Of a stretch of 64,000 nt of DNA, positions 22,157 to 35,762 are shown in pieces. The stretch covers positions 182,455 to 246,454 of the forward strand of contig CAMCRF010000002.1 of the NCBI GenBank assembly GCA_945877235.1. The letters run 5' to 3'. Source of the stretch: Bordetella parapertussis (GTDB lineage: Bacteria; Pseudomonadota; Gammaproteobacteria; Burkholderiales; Burkholderiaceae_A). Positions within the stretch are counted from its first letter, which is position 1. Every line of letters begins with the position of its first letter. Position numbers and translations under genes: made by a program. The notes beneath the pieces are model-generated. The model was not told the DNA's origin. It did no database searches and saw only the letters and a program-made list of their open reading frames with translations.

Positions 22157-22207
22157 TTAATGGGAAAAAAGCTGTCTAGACTCGAACCCAATAGGAACCA
22201 GTTGCCC

Positions 22208-22954
22208 ATGAACACGACTCATTTCGGATTTAAGACGGTTCTCGAGCAGGATAAGGCGCGAGAGGTTCGACGGGTATTCGATCGCGTTGCAGCCCGCTAT
22301 GACCTCATGAACGACCTCATGTCTGCGGGGCTTCATCGAGCCTGGAAGGCCTGGACGGTGGCTCAAGCCCAGGTGCAACCTGGGGACTGGGTCCTCGATG
22401 TTGCCAGCGGGACAGGCGATCTGGCCTTGGCCTTTTCGAAGCGGGTCGGTCCTGAGGGTCGCGTGGTCATGGCGGACATCAACGCGCAAATGCTCGAGCG
22501 CGGCAGAGACCGGCTCATGAACCTCGGTCGCTCAATAGAGGCTGTGGTTTGTGACTGCGAAGCGCTCCCCTTCTTGGACAATCAGTTCGATCGTATTACC
22601 CTGGCTTTTGGTCTGCGAAACATGACCCACAAGGATCAAGCCTTGCGCGAACTGCACCGGGTGCTTAAGCCCAATGGCAAGCTCTTGGTTTTGGAGTTCT
22701 CAAAAGTAGCAAAGCCGCTCGAGCCGCTTTATGACGCCTATTCTTTCAAAATATTGCCCTGGCTCGGTGAGCGCGTGACTGGCGATGCCGACAGCTACCG
22801 ATATCTCGCGGAGTCGATCCGTATGCATCCCGACCCTGAAACGCTTGCAACGCTCATGCGCGATAGCGGCTTTGGGGTGGTTCGCTATTCCACCCACACA
22901 GCGGGTGTGGTTGCTCTGCACCAAGCAGTGAAACTTGGGTCCAATCCCAAATAA
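22208..22954 (+). CDS. ubiE: UbiE, demethylbenzoquinol/demethylmenaquinol C-methyltransferase
   Basis: The 248-residue class I SAM methyltransferase has [15 protein letters not shown] (motif I), the family segment [21 protein letters not shown] and the conserved [18 protein letters not shown]. It adds the C-methyl group in ubiquinone synthesis. ATG 22208 gives [11 protein letters not shown] as in homologues; the 16 codons upstream look untranslated. It starts a rightward cluster with a Tim44-domain gene and ubiJ. ubiB, often next in relatives, is absent. Confidence 0.95.
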
Positions 22955-25823: not shown

Positions 25824-26786
25824 ATGAAACCTGTCGTGCTTTTTCTTGACGACTTCGAGCATGCATTCTCTAACACCCCGAGGATTCGGGCTCTCGATCG
25901 CATTGCAACCCTCGAGCTCAATACCTCCCCTTTGCGAGGTGCTGCGCTTGAGTCTGCCTTGGCACGGGCCAGCGGCGTTGTCTTGATGCGGGATCGCACG
26001 CCATTCGGCGCGCGCGAGCTGAGTCTCGCACCCCACCTCAAGTTCGTGGTTTACACCGGCACGCGAAACAACCTGCTCGATGAAGCCGCGTGTCAGGCAC
26101 GTGAAATTCCCGTGTTCAACACACAATTTGGCCCCTCTAAAGCGAGTACGTGCGAGCTCACCTGGGCGCTCATTCTCGCGAGCCTCAAGCGTGTTGAGGC
26201 TGGTATTAAGGTACTCCGAGAGCCGCATGCGGACTGGCGACAGGGCCTACACTTCCCTCAACTTGCCGACATTCTAGAGGGAGAGACCCTTGGCCTAATT
26301 GGCCTTGGCAATATTGGAGCACGCGTTGCGCGCGTCGGACAGGCCTTCGGCATGCGCGTGCTTGCATGGAGCCCCAACTTGACGCCCGAGCGGGCTCAGG
26401 CGGGAGGGGCGGAGTGGGCGTCACTCGACGAGCTCCTACGACACAGTAAGGCTGTGAGCCTGCACATGGTGTTGGCTGACACCACACGTGGCCTCATCAA
26501 TGCCGAACGCCTCGCCTCCATGCGCCCGGACAGTGTGTTGGTAAATACATCCCGGGCTGGGCTGGTTGTGGAACAGGATCTTCTTAATGCACTCAAGGAG
26601 GGTCGCCCATCGATGGCCGCGCTGGATGTGTTCGAGCAAGAGCCATTGCCTGCTGATCACCCTTTTCGCACCATGAGCCAGGTCACGCTCTCTCCTCACT
26701 TGGGCTTTGTGGCTAATCCGGTCTATGCCACCTTCACCGAGACCGTGGCGGATCACCTGGAGCGGCTGTTACCCACAATTCAGTGA
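25824..26786 (+). CDS. D-2-hydroxyacid dehydrogenase family protein
   Basis: The 320-residue NAD(P)-dependent dehydrogenase has the Rossmann motif LGLIGLGNIGARVARV (about 153-168). The catalytic residues are Arg in NTSRAGLV, Glu in FEQEPLP and His in LSPHLGF. The family reduces 2-keto acids or oxidises hydroxyacids; the substrate is open (phosphoglycerate, hydroxypyruvate or another). There is no ACT domain, so it is not a long SerA. It lies alone, divergent from rlmH, and overlaps the converging P450 gene by 53 bases. Confidence 0.88.
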   Translation: MKPVVLFLDDFEHAFSNTPRIRALDRIATLELNTSPLRGAALESALARASGVVLMRDRTPFGARELSLAPHLKFVVYTGTRNNLLDEAACQAREIPVFNTQFGPSKASTCELTWALILASLKRVEAGIKVLREPHADWRQGLHFPQLADILEGETLGLIGLGNIGARVARVGQAFGMRVLAWSPNLTPERAQAGGAEWASLDELLRHSKAVSLHMVLADTTRGLINAERLASMRPDSVLVNTSRAGLVVEQDLLNALKEGRPSMAALDVFEQEPLPADHPFRTMSQVTLSPHLGFVANPVYATFTETVADHLERLLPTIQ

Positions 26787-27765
26787 GGCCGTTATACAGC
26801 GGTCCGCCCAGCCATGCCTGAGGCTCGGGCTCCCTTAGGAGCTTGAGCTCGGGTCGGGCGTGAGCGAGGGCTTGCAATGCAGTCATGGCCTCTGTTCGAG
26901 TGAGGGCGGCCCCCAGGCAGACATGCGCGCCGCTGCCGAATGGGAGACCGGCCGACTGCAGATCGGCAATGACGAGCTCTCCGCGGCGCAGGGTCTGACC
27001 GAAGGCGTCCAGGCCTTTTTTGACGCGACGGCCTGTGATGCGAATGGGCGGATACGCTCGCAACACCTGATGCACGACGGTTTGGGCGACAGATTCTTGC
27101 GGGAGTGTTTGCCAAGTGTGGGTGTCCCTCAGGCTCATGAGCAGCCCAACCGAGAGCAGGTGCCGGGTAGTCTCGAGCCCGGCGAAGAACAACATGAGCT
27201 TCTGCACCTGGGCTTGCGAGAGGGGGGACTCTAGGCCCATAGATGTCGTCAGCAGCCGAGCCGCTGCCTCCGCCTGGTGAGCGACATCGCGGTTTAGGCT
27301 GGGCTGCTCGAGGAATATGGCTAAAGCCTGAGAGGCTGCCCACAGCGCGGGATTATCTAGGACCTTCAACCCCATCCAGTGGCACATCACCTTGAGCGGC
27401 ACTTTGCGGGCGTAGTGTTCCACCAAATCAATTGGACGCCCACGGGGTAGAGAGGCTGCTACCTCATCTGCCCATTCGCGTAGCAAATCTTTTTTGAGCA
27501 AGACCTCGCGCGCTGAGAAGGCCTCGGATACAGCGGAGCGGGCAGTCTGGTGCTCTGGACCATCTTGAAAGATCAAGGCACGTGAGAGGAGCTTACGAAA
27601 ATCAAGTTGCTCTCCACGTGCGGCTCCAGCTTTGCGAATCCAGCCAGCGGTCCGGTCAGCCGAGAGGCAGTCAGAGCTCAATGCCCACTGGACGGCTGTT
27701 CTACCCGTCGCCACCCATGCGCCCTCATAGAGCGAGGGGTCCCAGCGAAGCTGGGTTTGTGTCAT
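26734..27765 (-). CDS. Short, atypical cytochrome P450 in the biotin operon
   Basis: The 343-residue protein is recognisable as a P450 by the helix-C segment [16 protein letters not shown] (68-83), the I-helix oxygen-activation motif AGLETT (195-200) and the heme loop [10 protein letters not shown] (276-285, Cys283 as thiolate ligand). Two oddities stand out. The K-helix ExxR reads QVLR (233-236), losing the glutamate. The stretch between the K' strands and the heme loop is about 20-25 residues shorter than in common bacterial P450s and lacks the usual NRDP and DPxxFD motifs. It overlaps bioB by four bases (ATGA). By position it may act like BioI, the Bacillus P450 that cleaves acyl-ACP to pimeloyl-ACP; that is inference. 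Confidence 0.85.
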
Positions 27766-28763
27766 GTGGGCTGAATCTGAAGTCGCTCTAGGAGCGCTCG
27801 ATCGTGTTCAGCCTGGGGATTTGAAGTGGTGAGCAGCCGGTCGCCATAGAAAATTGAGTTTGCCCCAGCCATAAAGCAGAGTGTCTGCAGCTCGTCTGAC
27901 ATACCCTCTCGGCCGGCAGACAGGCGAACACGCGCATGGGGCATGAGCACTCTTGCGACTGCGATGGTTCGAACGAACTCAAGCGGGTCGAGCGCTGGTG
28001 TGCCGTGGAGCGGGGTGCCGGGCACTGGAACCAATTGGTTGATCGGCACGGACTCTGGCGCTGGTGAGAGGTTCGCTAAGGTCGCCAACAGGCCCGCTCG
28101 CTGACGCCGCGTCTCCCCCATGCCAACAATGCCGCCGCAACAGACATGAATACCAGCATCCCGAACACGATCGAGTGTCTCCAGGCGATCCTCAAACTGT
28201 CGCGTCGAAATGATTTGTCCGTAGAAGTCCGCAGAGGTGTCTAGATTGTGGTTGTAGTAGTCCAGCCCTGCATCTGCAAGCGACTGAGCCTGAGATTCGG
28301 TAAGCATGCCCAGCGTCATACAGGCCTCAAGGCCCAGGCCTCTGACGCCTCTGACCATGTTGGTGAGGACGTCCATGTCCTTGTCCTTGGGGCTGCGCCA
28401 GGCAGCACCCATACAGAAACGACTGGCACCCTGCGCCTTGGCCTGCGCCGCAGCTTCAAGGACCTCGCTCACATCCATGAGTTTCTCGGCCTTGACGCTG
28501 CCCTCGTGGTGAGCAGACTGGGGGCAGTAGCCACAGTCCTCAGCACACCCACCGGTTTTGATGGACAGCAGCGTAGAGAGCTGAACCTCGTTGTGCGGCT
28601 GGTGGGCACGATGAACCTGCTGCGCCTGGAACACCAGATCCAGAAAGGGCCGATCAAAGAGATCGACCACGACCTGGGTGGTCCAGCGTTTGGGCTGGGT
28701 GTCTTCAGGTCGGGACAAAGTAGCGGCGGAGGCCGTCGGTGTGGAGAGCGTCGAGAGGGTCAT
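27762..28763 (-). CDS. bioB: BioB, biotin synthase
   Basis: The 333-residue radical SAM enzyme inserts sulfur into dethiobiotin. The [4Fe-4S] motif is C73-AED-C77-GY-C80, and the segments [18 protein letters not shown] and [12 protein letters not shown] are diagnostic. The N-terminal ~25 residues have no counterpart in E. coli BioB and overlap bioD by 59 bases; a TTG near codon 16 is a plausible later start. The last four bases overlap the P450 start. Confidence 0.96.
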
Positions 28764-29412
28764 AACGGTCTTGGTCTAGTCTGGGAATTCTGCCTAAGCA
28801 TGGAGCGCCAAAGCGATGCTCAATAACATCTCGTAATGCAAAGAAGGTCTGCTCGGAAAATAACATGTCCGGATCCACGGTGTTCGCAATCCAGCCAGCG
28901 ATCGGGAGGCCCTCCGATTGGATGGCCCTGAGGGTGAGTAGCGCATGATTCATACACCCCAGTCGCATCCCCACCACCAAAACAACGGGCAAGCCGAGTA
29001 AGCGTGCCAGGTCTGCAGTGGAGCAGTCATGACTTAGGGGCACGTCGAAACCTCCGACGCCTTCGACAATCACACAGTCAACGCTTTGCTCGAGCTGCTT
29101 AAGCGCGGGCCAGATCGGTTCAAGCGAGAGGCTTAGGTGCTCCTGATCAGCCGCCACGGAGGGCGCGCTTGGGGCAAGGAGCTGAATCGGTCCCACAGTC
29201 AGAGGCCCGATCTCGGCAAGACCGGTGGCGTGGTGAAGGGCAGTGACGTCCTCGTTCACTCCACCGACGGCCCGTCCAGCGGAGATTGGCTTAAACCCCG
29301 CCGTTCGAACCCCAAGCGCTTGCCCTAGACGCACCAGTGTGCAAGACACCAGCGTCTTTCCAATCTCCGTGTCCGTTCCGGCAACAAAAAGGCCGCGCCG
29401 TGGACTCACCAA
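28705..29412 (-). CDS. bioD: BioD, dethiobiotin synthetase
   Basis: The 235-residue ATP-dependent carboxylase closes the ureido ring of dethiobiotin. The P-loop is GTDTEIGKT (12-20), the substrate lysine lies in GFKPISAG, and [14 protein letters not shown] carries the second conserved loop. The start lies seven bases inside the end of the ammonium transporter gene, and the 3' end overlaps bioB by 59 bases, so it is clearly co-transcribed with both. Confidence 0.95.
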
Positions 29413-30611
29413 CTTGTCTCGCGTTCCGGCGTCGAGGAGACCTTATGGATACTGAGGTCGGCGCCTTCGAACTCCGCTTCGCGGTCGAGTCGTAGGCCGA
29501 GTGTGTATCGCAGTCCACCGTAAATCACGGTGGCGCCAATGACGGAGATCAGCACTGCCGTAATCGCGCCAACGATCTGGCTCCCCAATGCTACGCCGCC
29601 CAGACCTCCGAGTGCTGGCAGGCCAAAAAATCCGACGGCAATGGTGCCCATCACGCCGCAGAGCCCATGTAAGGGCCATACGCCAAGCACATCATCGATC
29701 TTGAGACGGCTCTGCGTGAAGTTGAACATCTTCACAAAAAGCAGTCCGGCGAGCAATCCAACGACCAAGGAGCCGAGGGGATGCATGACATCACTTCCGG
29801 CACAGACTGCGACCAGTCCCGCGAGAGGCCCGTTGTAAACGAAACCGGGATCGTTTCTACCCAAGGCAAGAGCAGCAAGGGTTCCGCCGATCATGGCCAT
29901 CAGGCTATTGAGCGCGACCAACCCCGAGATGGCCTCAATCTTTTGTGCACTCATGACATTGAATCCGAACCAGCCTACGATCAGAATCCAGCTGCCCAAG
30001 GCGAGAAATGGAATGCTGCTTGGCGGGTGCGCCGCGACTGCCCCGCCGGTTCGGTATCGGCCCGTGCGCGGCCCCAAGAACAGCACGGCAATGAGTGCTG
30101 CCCAGCCGCCCACCGCGTGCACCACAGCTGATCCCGCGAAGTCATGAAAGGTCGCTCCGAACCATGACTGCATGGTGTCTTGAAACCCAAACAAGTTGTT
30201 CCAGGCCATTCCCTCAAAAAGTGAGTAAACCAATCCAACCATCAGCGCGGTAGCAATCAGCTGCGGACCGAATCGAGCGCGCTCTGCAATGCCGCCTGAA
30301 ATGATGGCGGGAATCGCAGCAGCAAACGTGAACAGAAAAAAGAACTTGGTGAGCCCAAAGCCGTGGTCTTGCGTCAGTGTCTCGGCGCTGACGAAAAAGT
30401 GGATCCCGTAGGCGTGGTAGTACCCAATAAAGAAGTATGCAAGGCCGCTGACCGAGAGATCGGCAACGATCTTGACCAGCGCATTTACTTGATTCTTGTG
30501 CCTGACGGTACCGACTTCTAGAAAGGCAAATCCCGCATGCATGGCCAGAACCATGATGGCGCCAAGGAGAATGAAAAGCGTGTCAACGCTGGTTGCAGCG
30601 GCTGCGTTCAT
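29406..30611 (-). CDS. amt: Amt-family ammonium transporter inside the biotin operon
   Basis: The 401-residue protein has about eleven membrane helices. The twin pore histidines are in HDFAGSAVVHAVGG and WPLHGLCGVMG, and the N-terminal AGFAFLEVGTVRHKNQVN is typical of Amt. It conducts ammonium or ammonia across the inner membrane. Amt genes usually sit beside glnK; none is here. Instead the gene is 46 bases after bioF and overlaps bioD by seven bases. An imperfect hairpin (30624-30643) lies just before the start. Confidence 0.95.
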   Translation of the reverse strand: MNAAAATSVDTLFILLGAIMVLAMHAGFAFLEVGTVRHKNQVNALVKIVADLSVSGLAYFFIGYYHAYGIHFFVSAETLTQDHGFGLTKFFFLFTFAAAIPAIISGGIAERARFGPQLIATALMVGLVYSLFEGMAWNNLFGFQDTMQSWFGATFHDFAGSAVVHAVGGWAALIAVLFLGPRTGRYRTGGAVAAHPPSSIPFLALGSWILIVGWFGFNVMSAQKIEAISGLVALNSLMAMIGGTLAALALGRNDPGFVYNGPLAGLVAVCAGSDVMHPLGSLVVGLLAGLLFVKMFNFTQSRLKIDDVLGVWPLHGLCGVMGTIAVGFFGLPALGGLGGVALGSQIVGAITAVLISVIGATVIYGGLRYTLGLRLDREAEFEGADLSIHKVSSTPERETSW

Positions 30612-30657: not shown

Positions 30658-31839
30658 TCAGTCTCGTGCTGCGGTGAGCTCCGAGCACAGGGCAGTCAAA
30701 TCGTCCATGGTGTGAGCAGCCGAGAGCGACACCCGAAGTCTGGCCGTGCCCTCGGGCACCGTAGGGGGCCGAATCGCTGGAACCCACAGGCCCGCCCGCG
30801 CGAGCGCCTGGGAGTGCTCTATCGTCATACCGTTGTCTCCGATCAGCACGGGCTGAATGGCCGTGTCCGAGCCCAGCAGTTTGAGCCCCACCGCATGCAG
30901 CGAAGCACGTTGCGATTGCATGTGTTCAATCAGGTGTGCAAGGTGCCTGCGACGACGCGATCCTTCATCGCCGCGAATGATCTCGAGGCTCTGGAGCAGG
31001 GCATGACTGATTGCGGGTGGGGGGGCCGTGGTGTACACGAAGCTGCGGGCTGTCTGTTGCATCCATTCGATTACCAGCGGGTGCGCCGCTACGAATGCGC
31101 CCGAGACGCCGGCGGCCTTTCCCAGCGTGCCCATCAGGACAAACCGCTCACTGCAGATTTGTGAGAGCGCCATGGTGCCTCGGCCCTCCTCGCCCAAGAC
31201 GCCCACGGCGTGGGCATCATCAACAACCACGGTTGCATCAAATCGTTCTGCAAGGCTGAGCATGGCCGCCAGTGGAGCGAGGTCTCCGTCCATACTAAAC
31301 ACACCATCAGTTACGATCAGTTTGAGTCGGGCTTGGCTGCTCGAGAGGAGTCGTTCGAGGGCGTCCATATCCCGATGGGGAAACCGACGATGATCTGCCT
31401 CGCTCAAGCGCATGCCGTCAATCAGCGACGCATGGTTGAGCTTGTCGCAAAAAAGGGCGTCGCCCCGTTCCGTGAGCGCCGTGAGCAGGGCCAGATTCGC
31501 GAGGTATCCCGTCGAAAACAGCAGGCACCGGCACTCGGGAAACAAGGGTGCAACCCAGTCTTGCAATGCGCATTCAAGTTGTTCGTGTGCCAGGCTGTGG
31601 CCACTCACCATTGCAGAGGCGCCGGCTCCAGCCCCGTATAAATCGAGTCCTTCATGAAAGGCCTCCAGCACGCCTGGATGATTGGCCAGTCCTAGGTAGT
31701 CATTGCTTGCGAAGTTAATTAGAGATTCGGCCTCTCGACGCGCTATTCGACCGTTTGGGCCGCGTCCCGTGACACGCTGCCGCAATAAGTCAGCGGCCTT
31801 GCGTTCACGCAAGCGTTGGTGGAGTCTGTCCAGCAGCAT
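30658..31839 (-). CDS. bioF: BioF, 8-amino-7-oxononanoate synthase
   Basis: The 393-residue PLP enzyme condenses pimeloyl-ACP (or -CoA) with alanine. The PLP lysine is in MGTLGKAAGVSGA, preceded by VVDDAHAVGVLG. ASNDYLGLANHP near residue 45 and HASLIDG are typical of alpha-oxoamine synthases. KBL and ALAS are alternatives by fold, but the neighbours bioA, bioD and bioB fix the role. It overlaps bioA by 35 bases. Confidence 0.95.
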   Translation of the reverse strand: MLLDRLHQRLRERKAADLLRQRVTGRGPNGRIARREAESLINFASNDYLGLANHPGVLEAFHEGLDLYGAGAGASAMVSGHSLAHEQLECALQDWVAPLFPECRCLLFSTGYLANLALLTALTERGDALFCDKLNHASLIDGMRLSEADHRRFPHRDMDALERLLSSSQARLKLIVTDGVFSMDGDLAPLAAMLSLAERFDATVVVDDAHAVGVLGEEGRGTMALSQICSERFVLMGTLGKAAGVSGAFVAAHPLVIEWMQQTARSFVYTTAPPPAISHALLQSLEIIRGDEGSRRRRHLAHLIEHMQSQRASLHAVGLKLLGSDTAIQPVLIGDNGMTIEHSQALARAGLWVPAIRPPTVPEGTARLRVSLSAAHTMDDLTALCSELTAARD

Positions 31840-33193
31840 GATGTGTCAAGTTTTCGAGAATGCTCTGAGCAAAAACCGCGGCGAGCCACTCGACGTGGCC
31901 CTCATGAAGAACCAAAGGGGGCATCAGATACACCGACGGACCAATGGGTCTGATCAGCAGACCCTTGATGCGAGCAGTCTCTCGAATCTGGCGGATGCGA
32001 TTCGCATCGAAATAAGCTGGGCTGATATCAACGGCCCAGATACTCCCAAGGTTTCGAAAATGCTGAACGGCGCCCAGTTCGATCGCAGGTCTAAGCGCCT
32101 CATAAAGGGCATTGGTCAGCTCACGCGCAGCGATAGCGGTCTTCTGAAGAAGCTCCTCCTCTCGAAGCACCTCAAGCACGGTGAGGGCAGCTCTGCATGC
32201 GAGGGGGTTTCCCGAGTAGGAGTGAGAGTGCAAAAATCCGCGCCGAACATCAGGGTGGTAGAAAGCCTGAAACACTCTGGTTTGAGTGAGCACCAGGGAG
32301 AGTGGTAAGAACCCACCTGAGATGCCTTTTGAGAGGCAGATAAAGTCTGGCCAGTCCTGCGCTTGAGACGCACCAGAGAGCGCCTGTTCCCAGGCAAAGA
32401 ACGTGCCCGTTCGCCCACAGCCCACCGCGATCTCATCGGCAATCAGATGAATGCCGCGTGCGCGGGTGAGGGCGCGCGCTCTCTTGAGGTAAGCCGGGGG
32501 ATACATCGCCATGCCTGCTGCACCCTGAACCAGAGGCTCCAAAATCAGCGCACAGATGGATGCGCCGTGGCTGTCGAGCGCGCGCTCTAAAGCTCGCGCA
32601 GCCTGTTCTGCCCAGACTGCATCCGAGACCCCTGCAGGCGCAAGGCGTGGATCTGGAGATGGCACCAAGATCGGCTCTCGAATCAGCGGCGCGTATGCTT
32701 CGCGAAAGATGGGCACATCGGTTACTGACAAGGCGCCGAGCGTCTCGCCGTGATAGCTCTGGGATAGACAGACAAACCGATTCCGCCCCGTTTGGCCATT
32801 CGCATGCATGCTGTGGGCGCTCATTTTGAGGGCGATCTCGACAGCTGAGGCGCCATCACTCGCAAAAAAGCAATGCCCAAGATGGCCTTGCGTCAGAGCG
32901 CTCAGGGCCTCTGCCAGCTCAACTGCCGGCCGGTGTGTGCACCCTGCAAGCATGACATGGCTCAGGGTGTCGAGCTGCTCCTTGATCGCCGCAACCACTC
33001 TGGGATGTCCGTGTCCGAGTAAATTGACCCACCACGAGCTGATTCCGTCGAAAAGCCGCTGACCGTCCTCCAGTTCAAGCCAGGGGCCATGGGCTCGCGC
33101 CACAGCCAATGGGGGGTCCCGGTGCGCTTGCCACATCTGGGTGCATGGGTGCCAGATGGCTCTGAGACTTCTCTGGGCTAGGGATTCAACCAT
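31805..33193 (-). CDS. bioA: BioA, adenosylmethionine-8-amino-7-oxononanoate aminotransferase
   Basis: The 462-residue class III aminotransferase converts KAPA to DAPA with SAM as amino donor. Key segments are the N-terminal IWHPCTQM, FDGISSWWVNLLGHGHP, YHGETLGALSVTD, the Asp in LIADEIAVGCGRTG and the PLP lysine in CLSKGISGGFLP. IWHPxTQM with SSWW separates BioA from other omega-aminotransferases. It is first in the leftward bioA-bioF-amt-bioD-bioB-P450 operon. Only about 35 bases separate it from the divergent methyltransferase gene. Confidence 0.96.
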   Translation of the reverse strand: MVESLAQRSLRAIWHPCTQMWQAHRDPPLAVARAHGPWLELEDGQRLFDGISSWWVNLLGHGHPRVVAAIKEQLDTLSHVMLAGCTHRPAVELAEALSALTQGHLGHCFFASDGASAVEIALKMSAHSMHANGQTGRNRFVCLSQSYHGETLGALSVTDVPIFREAYAPLIREPILVPSPDPRLAPAGVSDAVWAEQAARALERALDSHGASICALILEPLVQGAAGMAMYPPAYLKRARALTRARGIHLIADEIAVGCGRTGTFFAWEQALSGASQAQDWPDFICLSKGISGGFLPLSLVLTQTRVFQAFYHPDVRRGFLHSHSYSGNPLACRAALTVLEVLREEELLQKTAIAARELTNALYEALRPAIELGAVQHFRNLGSIWAVDISPAYFDANRIRQIRETARIKGLLIRPIGPSVYLMPPLVLHEGHVEWLAAVFAQSILENLTHHAAGQTPPTLA

Positions 33194-33228
33194 GGCGCAG
33201 AGTGTATGCTCGACGCATCATCTACGCT

Positions 33229-34218
33229 ATGAAACACAACGCTCTCGCCACAGATTGGACGGCCTATTGGGCTTCGGGCGCCCTGCACTCTTGCGTCGGG
33301 TCTTTCCAGGGCAATTACGAGGGAGCGATCGCATCATTCTGGAGGTCTGCCTGGATTGACCGCATCAAGCCGCAGGATCGCGTACTTGACCTTGGGTGCG
33401 GGAATGGTCCTCTCGCCCTGCTGCTTGTGAACGCCTCGGTGCCCTGGGGTGATTATGTGGGTGTTGACCTCGCAGCCGTCTCGCCTCAGTGGCGCTTGCA
33501 GCTCCCACCCAATCAACGTGATCGCATTGCGTTTCTCGGCCGCACCTCCATGACGCAGACGGCGTTGCCTGACGGTGCTTTCAACTGGGTGGTCTCACAG
33601 TTTGGGGTTGAATATGCCGATCTCAACGCATGGGTCTCCGAGGTTGATCGATTGTCGACAGAGGCTCCAAATTTCGCACTCTTCATGCACCACAACCAGA
33701 GTCGATTGACGCTTGCTGCTCGAGAGGAGGTGGATCATGCAGATTGGCTGTTTTCGGAGTCAGGATTGTTCACCTGCGCTGCCGAGATGATTGAGCCCAT
33801 GGCGCTCTCGCGCACTCTGATGGGACGAAAGCAACTCGAACGGAGCCCGCAGGCGAAAGGCGCTCGAGATCGGTTCAACCATGCGCAGGACGAACTCAAC
33901 CAGCGCGCAGCGCAGTCATCGGTTCCGGACTTGCTGTTTCAGGCCCGTGAGGCCTGCGCTCAGATATTGACGATTGCCCAGACACAGGGTGGTGCCCCTG
34001 CCAGACAGGCATGGGAGGCTTGGCGCAGATCGAGCTCTGAGGCTAGAGCCCGTCAGGCCGAACTCGTTGCCGCAGCCCAGAGCGCTGAGGCCATCTCCGA
34101 CCTAGAGGGTCGGCTTAAATCGCTGCGTCCTGGCTTGCATTCCCACCTAGCAGCCATCTCTGAGGGACGGTATCTTCTTGGATGGGGCCTCTCTCTCTAC
34201 CCACAAAGGAGTTCATGA
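33229..34218 (+). CDS. Class I SAM-dependent methyltransferase divergent from bioA
   Basis: The ~329-residue protein has SAM motif [16 protein letters not shown] near residue 54 and an acidic loop VGVDLA. The N-terminus is tryptophan- and tyrosine-rich ([15 protein letters not shown]). The C-terminal ~110 residues look helical and alanine/arginine-rich. It is longer than typical BioC (about 250), and I do not recognise it as BioC, although it faces bioA head to head. ATG 33229 is used; a GTG at 33202 would add nine residues. No strong ribosome site is seen for either. It overlaps the following VOC gene region by four bases if that gene starts at 34215. Confidence 0.7.
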
Positions 34219-34667: not shown

Positions 34668-35762
34668 ATGCCCGATCGACTGCCAACGAATGCCCCAATT
34701 GCACAGCGCATAGAGCGGCTCTTTGACCTGGCGCGGCGCCATGGGGAGACGTTTGCCGGTCCAGAGGCTAGCCTCGCCCGGGAGCGCTACTTGGCTCAGC
34801 ATCCAACGGCGGTTTTGGTCCTCAAATGTATGGACGGCCGCATCAATCTCTCCGTCGCTACTCAGACTCCGGCTGGCATCCTCATGCCTTTTCGGAATCT
34901 TGGGGGCATGTTTGATCTGGGCTGGCCCCACCTTGGCGAGGTGCTTCACCACCAAGTCATGCGTATGGTGCATCAAGGGCGTCGCGTCCTATTGCTGATT
35001 ACATATCACTTCTCGCGTGGGGAGCCACTCAGAGGCTGCGCCGGCTTTCACTATGACCGCGCTGCAAGCATGCGTCATACCTGGCAGGTTCGACATCAGG
35101 TGGAGCGCATTTTCGGCACCGATCACCAGACCGTATACCCCGTTGTGTGCGGATTTGAGACTGATGAAGATGCACTTTTGATTCATGGTGAATCGGACGA
35201 TGCGGTGCTCGATGTCTCCGCGCTTTCAGACGGGAATTCCACCGAGCTGCGCCACCGGATTTCCGCGCTGTTTCCGGATATGCCTCTGGCGATGCAAAGT
35301 GACATGCTGCCATTACTCGCGGGGAACTTTCACCATGTCGCGCAGATCCGTGCACTCAATGCTCGCCAAGCGCGCACGCTCGACATTGAGCATCGCGAGT
35401 GGGTGATTTGCCTGGGCCGTGGCTTTGACTGGCTGCACACGCCCAACCTCGCCTTGATCATCGGCCCATACAGCCCAGATCTAGCCCACCCAATCCGCAC
35501 CGCGGCAGGCATTATCGAATCGAACATGTCGGCTGGACGTATTCCGGACGATGGATTTCTCTTGCTTGCGTCCGTCCCTTTTGAAGACGCTGGAGCCGAT
35601 CGCGCACGGGCTGAGGTGAAGGCACAGTTCCTCTCCTCCTTCGCTGCGCAGACCATTGAGCAGACCAATCCTGAGCTTGCAAAGAAAATGTCTGTCTGCA
35701 CGGCGGTATTGGATTGGAGAGTCCGAAGGCTTGAGCGTCTCTCCATTCAAGCCGCTCTCTAG
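34668..35762 (+). CDS. CsoSCA-like (carboxysomal-type) beta-carbonic anhydrase homologue
   Basis: The 364-residue protein has a beta-carbonic anhydrase zinc signature: Cys54-x-Asp56-x-Arg58 (LKCMDGRIN) and His114 followed ten residues later by Cys124 (YHFSRGEPLRGCAGF). Ordinary beta-enzymes have HxxC; the long His-to-Cys gap and the length, with a second degenerate-looking half, resemble CsoSCA of alpha-carboxysomes. No RuBisCO or shell protein gene is present. Function as a carbonic anhydrase is inference; the residues needed are there. It lies 21 bases after the VOC gene and seven before the antiporter gene. Confidence 0.55.
   Translation: MPDRLPTNAPIAQRIERLFDLARRHGETFAGPEASLARERYLAQHPTAVLVLKCMDGRINLSVATQTPAGILMPFRNLGGMFDLGWPHLGEVLHHQVMRMVHQGRRVLLLITYHFSRGEPLRGCAGFHYDRAASMRHTWQVRHQVERIFGTDHQTVYPVVCGFETDEDALLIHGESDDAVLDVSALSDGNSTELRHRISALFPDMPLAMQSDMLPLLAGNFHHVAQIRALNARQARTLDIEHREWVICLGRGFDWLHTPNLALIIGPYSPDLAHPIRTAAGIIESNMSAGRIPDDGFLLLASVPFEDAGADRARAEVKAQFLSSFAAQTIEQTNPELAKKMSVCTAVLDWRVRRLERLSIQAAL

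Follow-up and report, generated by a model that had tools for sequence, protein, structure and literature searches.

The closest described counterpart of the gene considered here is BioI (P450BioI, CYP107H1) of Bacillus subtilis, a cytochrome P450 encoded in the biotin operon and bearing a Cys thiolate motif. Published papers describe a BioI-BioW pathway in Bacillus (PMC8024396), call BioI an enigma whose product is not used by the BioF of B. subtilis (PMC7645780, from 2020) and call it unique to that species and redundant there (PMC12915131, from 2025). No published account of a betaproteobacterial biotin-operon P450 was found among titles and the beginnings of abstracts, a coverage that reaches few subscription journals and gives no proof of absence. 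The present gene, like that of BioI, belongs to a biotin operon, in a stretch of 64,000 nucleotides from Bordetella parapertussis (GCA_945877235.1, contig CAMCRF010000002.1, positions 182,455 to 246,454 of the forward strand), hereafter the window. Its product is betaproteobacterial rather than from Bacillus and, unlike BioI, is a 'mini' P450 of a form from which helices A and H and the meander are missing, as is, for the most part, the Glu of the ExxR motif.

We propose that the window P450 is a BioI-like catalyst of the pimelate step, in which O2-dependent cleavage of acyl-ACP (ACP, acyl carrier protein) would feed BioF; working from sequence and predicted models, we put the probability of this reading at roughly 0.55. 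A ferredoxin or flavodoxin would reduce the haem-thiolate P450, which would bind long-chain acyl-ACP and cleave its C7-C8 bond using O2, the cleavage yielding pimeloyl-ACP. BioF from the same operon would turn this into 7-keto-8-aminopelargonate (KAPA), and the P450 would replace BioC and its partner esterase in the window's lineage. We infer the substrate, the reaction and the electron donor, as well as haem binding by, and activity of, the reduced form. The proposal draws on the operon position, the linkage in relatives, the predicted P450 fold, the haem ligand residue, purifying selection and a nearest genome in which neither BioC nor BioW was detected. The protein itself is best explained as belonging, in reduced form, to a family of P450s encoded in Burkholderiales biotin operons.

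The operon runs along the minus strand between 33193 and 26734, with its genes in the following order of transcription:

31805..33193, minus strand: bioA, 7,8-diaminopelargonate (DAPA) aminotransferase (TIGR00508, 467 bits)
30658..31839, minus strand: bioF, 8-amino-7-oxononanoate synthase (TIGR00858, 431 bits)
29406..30611, minus strand: amt, ammonium transporter family, within the operon (PF00909, 288.6 bits)
28705..29412, minus strand: bioD, dethiobiotin synthase (TIGR00347, 150 bits)
27762..28763, minus strand: bioB, biotin synthase (TIGR00433, 408.5 bits)
27762..27765, minus strand: ATGA, the bioB stop shared with the P450 start
26734..27765, minus strand: mini cytochrome P450, 343 aa, final gene of the operon (Pfam PF00067)

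A first-pass annotation made from the letters alone had placed the P450 in line with the five preceding genes and overlapping bioB by four bases, and both statements hold. The bioA, bioF and bioD products all exceed their NCBIfam cut-offs; the amt protein lies above its Pfam cut-off and below that of TIGR00836; and the P450 reaches 26 bits against PF00067 (cut-off 22.8), sufficient for the P450 superfamily. The same ATGA overlap is present in the corresponding locus (L001) of the nearest genome, G001, a 2.2-Mb metagenome-assembled genome whose gene order matches that of the window from a methyltransferase gene through to a dehydrogenase gene. A scan of the operon for promoters and terminators gave sites no more numerous than in shuffles. 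The amt-family gene is identically placed between bioF and bioD in L001, with 93% identity; BioD uses CO2, and some members of the wider amt family are said to pass CO2.

The first-pass annotation had asked whether the linkage of P450 and bioB is conserved: linkage to bioB or to other bio genes extends well beyond the window. Among 5.8 billion proteins searched, six clusters fell in the mini length class, five of 343 aa and one of 351 aa, at 57-99% identity to the window protein, which groups with one of them (P0001) at 99%. A profile search with seven mini sequences added no further mini form among the 7998 candidates sharing most words, to which scoring was limited in both searches. One cluster (P0002) already bears the database name 'Biotin biosynthesis cytochrome P450-like enzyme'. 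The P450 of L001 is 70% identical to that of the window, and the next relatives (P0007-P0014, 408-480 aa) are 31-33% identical. When contigs from one genome per species were scanned and the best 80 of 186 P450 loci kept, 53 of these 80 had at least one of bioA, bioB, bioD and bioF no more than 7 kb from the P450 and the other 27 were unlinked, a division that may undercount linkage because several 'unlinked' loci end close to the P450. The neighbours of five of the 27 (L008, L032, L057, L063 and L080; crude gene calls read by eye) included no recurring biotin gene. Bio-linked P450s occur in Limnohabitans, Rhodoferax, Polaromonas, Variovorax, Thiomonas, Thauera, one alphaproteobacterium (Devosia) and some Burkholderia and Paraburkholderia. 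The biotin-operon P450s of the first seven genera stand with the mini form on one side of the tree, opposite other P450s, and have the same kind of operon; they are mostly about 400-420 aa long (where the start is clear), have ExxR and a 22-residue meander and show 31-37% identity with the window protein.

When 250 genomes were drawn evenly from the family to which a Limnohabitans genome (G028) belongs, 27 contained the P450, with 29 hits at E <= 1e-100: 14 within 4 kb of bioB, nine with bioF, bioD or bioA, and six whose surroundings, as far as read, showed no bio gene, one of these at a contig end. The P450 is patchy across the order as a whole, since a like draw of 250 genomes held it in only five, the centre included; the cut-off used in both draws is blind to mini forms. 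The P450 sits with bioF and/or bioD, bioB being distant or on another contig, in genomes such as those of Thiomonas (G059) and Brachymonas (G038, G061), and in Sphaerotilus it adjoins bioF, with bioB absent from the stretch read. A genome of only 1.2 Mb (G264, locus L297) has retained a P450-bioF-bioA-bioD cluster.

The tree unites the mini rows in a single group (support 100) joined by the full-length P0010 (98), and together these are separated from 25 other Burkholderiales P450s by a branch of support 100. The exact places of the mini forms, P0010 and the P450 of a further genome, G008, are unsure because of long branches: 2.11 to the mini clade and 4.3, very long, for G008, while the joining of P0010 with the mini forms is flagged as a meeting of long branches. 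The tree omits P0001, at 99% identity to the window protein, as well as P0015-P0021, L152 and any outgroup match below 300 aa.

Six of the seven aligned mini P450s, that of the window included, are 343 aa long and the seventh is 351 aa; all seven start with MT. Motifs were compared over 43 alignment rows, eight mini (window, P0001-P0006 and L001, among which window and P0001, and likewise P0003 and L001, are near-identical) and 35 full-length; the fold alignment omits A5, L057, L078 and also L070, whose translated stretch contains a stop. The motifs lie in the window as follows:

27166..27183, minus strand: I-helix motif AGLETT, residues 195-200 (AGxET invariant in 43/43 rows)
27058..27069, minus strand: degenerate ExxR, reading QVLR, residues 233-236, Glu lost and Arg retained
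26947..26949, minus strand: meander deletion point, the single residue Gly273
26911..26940, minus strand: haem-thiolate motif with Cys283 (FGxGxHxCxG invariant in 8/8 mini and 35/35 full-length rows)

The final position of the I-helix motif is T in 42 rows and S in one, whereas H72xxxR76 and R246-R247 do not vary in any of the 43. Retained residues on the propionate side of the haem, together with the thiolate, suggest that the mini P450 may bind haem. The HxxxR arginine and the I-helix glutamate are 122 residues apart in the mini form against 144-158 in full-length rows, and the N-terminus ahead of the invariant Trp measures 16-23 residues, where that of the eight full-length P0007-P0014 measures 30-68. 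In AlphaFold models, helices at 18-34 and 222-231 of the full-length P0007 are missing from the model of the mini form. The P450 of G008 is divergent, at 29% identity, but keeps both meander and ExxR. The predicted fold of P0007 is closest to the BioI-ACP structures 3EJB, 3EJD and 3EJE; among predicted-model comparisons BioI ranks first for P0007, tied for the mini form and second by Foldseek. The ratio of nonsynonymous to synonymous substitution (dN/dS) between window and L001 is 0.092 for the P450 over 343 codons (BioB 0.050, BioD 0.122, BioF 0.062, BioA 0.056), values that indicate purifying selection on the mini P450 and are rough because dS, at 1.5-3.6, is near saturation.

The route through BioC and a BioH- or BioG-type partner also yields pimeloyl-ACP, and requires no O2. 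A tblastn search of the window (E <= 1e-2), for which five queries were BioC or BioC-like proteins and two were hydrolases, produced a single match, the open reading frame (ORF) 22160-22954, which is of the UbiE family and not BioC (TIGR01934, 250 bits, cut-off 158; BioC model, 44 bits); for the queries tested, and with family models run on part of the window's ORFs, the earlier remark that the window holds no bioC/bioH pair is borne out. Beyond the window, the nearest relative, G001, was searched with the BioC model and for BioW, and the outcome that the first-pass annotation had named as refuting did not appear there. The BioC model (TIGR02072, cut-off 185) gives at best 43 bits in G001 and 45 bits in G008, on proteins that are by eye UbiE-like and whose window homologue scores as UbiE family; a decayed BioC homologue of G001 (L083) gives 37 bits, over the C-terminal half only. 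BioW was found in none of 12 genomes searched, G001 and G008 among them, whereas B. subtilis has both BioI and bioW.

In both G001 and G008 the P450 directly follows bioB, and their biotin clusters contain no bioC or hydrolase match. The clusters of G021, G022, G023, G025 and G026 have a bioC homologue and a hydrolase and no P450; the bioC homologue of G021 scores 115.5 bits, the bioC match of G022 is cut by a contig end, and the G021 hydrolase is an alpha/beta hydrolase that among named models matches BioH best, with 51.7 bits, below the cut-off of 207. Seven of the 26 genomes in the G001 family have bioB (E <= 1e-40) and the other 19 are without it. Judged by gene content, a clean alternation of P450 and bioC is confined to this family, on few lineages.

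Divergent from bioA, at 33202-34218 on the plus strand, lies the methyltransferase gene, with motif I intact and no specific NCBIfam family above cut-off; it occupies the same position in L001 with 69% identity. Considered as a hidden BioC, it was rejected: its NCBIfam hits include no BioC model and no counterpart was found in the G008 cluster. Its similarity to a true BioC is confined to the motif region for S-adenosylmethionine (SAM), at E 0.005. Beyond it, at 34668-35762 on the plus strand, is encoded a protein that weakly resembles the carboxysome shell carbonic anhydrase in its catalytic domain (PF20686, 23.4 bits, cut-off 21.5).

The findings that weigh against a catalytic role in the pimelate step concern both the protein and the distribution of other routes. 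The meander, which links the K-helix sheet to the Cys pocket, is reduced to one residue in all eight mini rows, against 22 in 35/35 full-length rows. The ExxR Glu is found in one of the eight mini rows and in all 35 full-length ones (its Arg in 43/43), so that the QVLR of the window departs from the K-helix ExxR. These losses, overlooked by the first-pass annotation, bear directly on whether the protein is capable of BioI chemistry. Both elements are tied to haem binding and core stability in PMC3224734, and the activity of the mini P450 is therefore uncertain. The near-saturated dS tells in the same direction, as does the operon's want of a redox-partner gene. By sequence, too, BioI is not the closest PDB chain: TamI and many others outscore 3EJB for the mini form, and 8YHN, TamI and others score higher than BioI for the full-length L004.

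The lost meander and, in 7/8 mini rows, lost Glu, along with the length of the branch leading to the mini clade, would also be expected of a pseudo-enzyme, a protein that has given up monooxygenase activity, still folds, perhaps binds haem or acyl-ACP, and serves as partner or carrier for a biotin-pathway protein. A precedent for a P450 fold with a degenerate catalytic framework exists in the P450-derived glycosyltransferase activators (TIGR04515), a model which the window P450 matches at 54.4 bits, far under the cut-off of 343. The haem Cys is kept in the window P450; to our knowledge, the known activators lack it. Since this Cys, the acid/Thr pair of the I-helix and the HxxxR and RR residues are invariant in all eight mini rows, and purifying selection acts on the P450, we regard a pseudo-enzyme as unlikely.

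The contrast within the G001 family represents one or two lineage splits and not seven independent cases. Among 30 P450-bearing genomes whose best BioC-like hit was given as a locus (50 were searched), motif I is retained in 12, of which seven have a bio-linked P450; two of the seven are Thauera (motif read by eye there). The remaining loci comprise two of Thiomonas type reading GCAWG, 15 without the motif and one, in G068, where the hit resembles a different methyltransferase. One Thauera operon (L027) unites bioC (236 bits, above cut-off), a BioH-like hydrolase (112 bits, below it) and the P450. Complete bioAFDB sets without the P450 occur in five of 20 P450-less bioB genomes sampled by hand from about 140, so that another route must exist. 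In the G028 family, moreover, SAM motif I of the BioC homologue is degenerate in all 80 sequences read, independently of P450 or bioB: 18/18 with the P450 (three only partly degenerate, VLDAGCAWG), 47/47 with bioB and no P450, and 15/15 without bioB. Intact copies may be under-sampled in this set (77 sequences hand-picked from the best-scoring rows of 245 genomes with a match, three from an earlier search) because the search model was built mostly from degenerate rows. The idea that gain of the P450 caused decay of BioC was rejected, motif I decay being equal with or without P450 or bioB.

Across the order, then, other routes neither need the P450 nor are excluded by it, because intact BioC co-occurs with it and complete operons do without it. 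This lends something to the suggestion that the P450 is an aerobic accessory, pimeloyl-ACP coming mainly from a BioC-type, BioE or uptake route, as does the dispensability of BioI in B. subtilis reported in PMC7645780 and PMC12915131. The failure to detect either BioC, beyond the UbiE-like proteins, or BioW in G001 and G008 tells against it, and we think it improbable for the window's lineage. The earlier suggestion of an alternative pimelate source or a biotin-related oxidation survives in part, favoured by the conserved linkage and by G001 and weakened by coexistence with intact BioC elsewhere. A different oxidation within biotin metabolism, acting for instance on KAPA, dethiobiotin or a biotin derivative, is very improbable. 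The overlap with bioB and not bioF in the window lineage speaks for it; against it, the P450 stays with bioF and/or bioD, apart from bioB, in Thiomonas, Brachymonas, Sphaerotilus and others, and the predicted model of the full-length form has an acyl-ACP P450 as its nearest structural neighbour.

The complete P450-less operons (L250-L253 and L255) have no recognisable bioC or bioH nearby, and their pimelate source is not evident; the BioC homologue is degenerate in G496, G485, G371 and G390, which have such operons. BioE, reported in Burkholderiaceae according to PMC12915131, could be their route. The other 15 sampled genomes (L254, L256-L269) have bioB without bioA, bioF or bioD in a stretch of mostly about 8 kb each side (that of L256 stops 0.8 kb past bioB), which, judged from this stretch alone, would fit use of an external precursor. 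The Comamonadaceae-type BioC homologue (L123-L137, L170-L249) has lost the SAM-binding motif, with for example WAHWxPxRGG in place of VLDAGCGxG, and has a strongly conserved C-terminal part, also where bioB is absent; by eye it adjoins a comF-like gene. For one such protein (L127) the BioC model is the sole NCBIfam match, at 90 bits. It appears to be a retained pseudo-methyltransferase.

Returning to the proposed BioI-like role, a broader picture may be drawn more tentatively, as a possibility we hold with some doubt: a widespread Burkholderiales pathway of BioI type, within which a natural minimal P450 of 343 residues, stripped of its meander, of helices A and H and in most cases of the ExxR Glu, may be the sole, O2-dependent source of pimeloyl-ACP in a small-genome lineage. 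The Burkholderiales biotin-operon P450s (the 53 linked loci among the best 80 are mostly of that order, and BioC is undetected in G001 and G008) provide organisms in which the BioI question could be tested directly. If active, a conserved P450 that has neither meander nor ExxR Glu would break a textbook rule, and the mini form raises the question of which parts of the P450 scaffold are indispensable.
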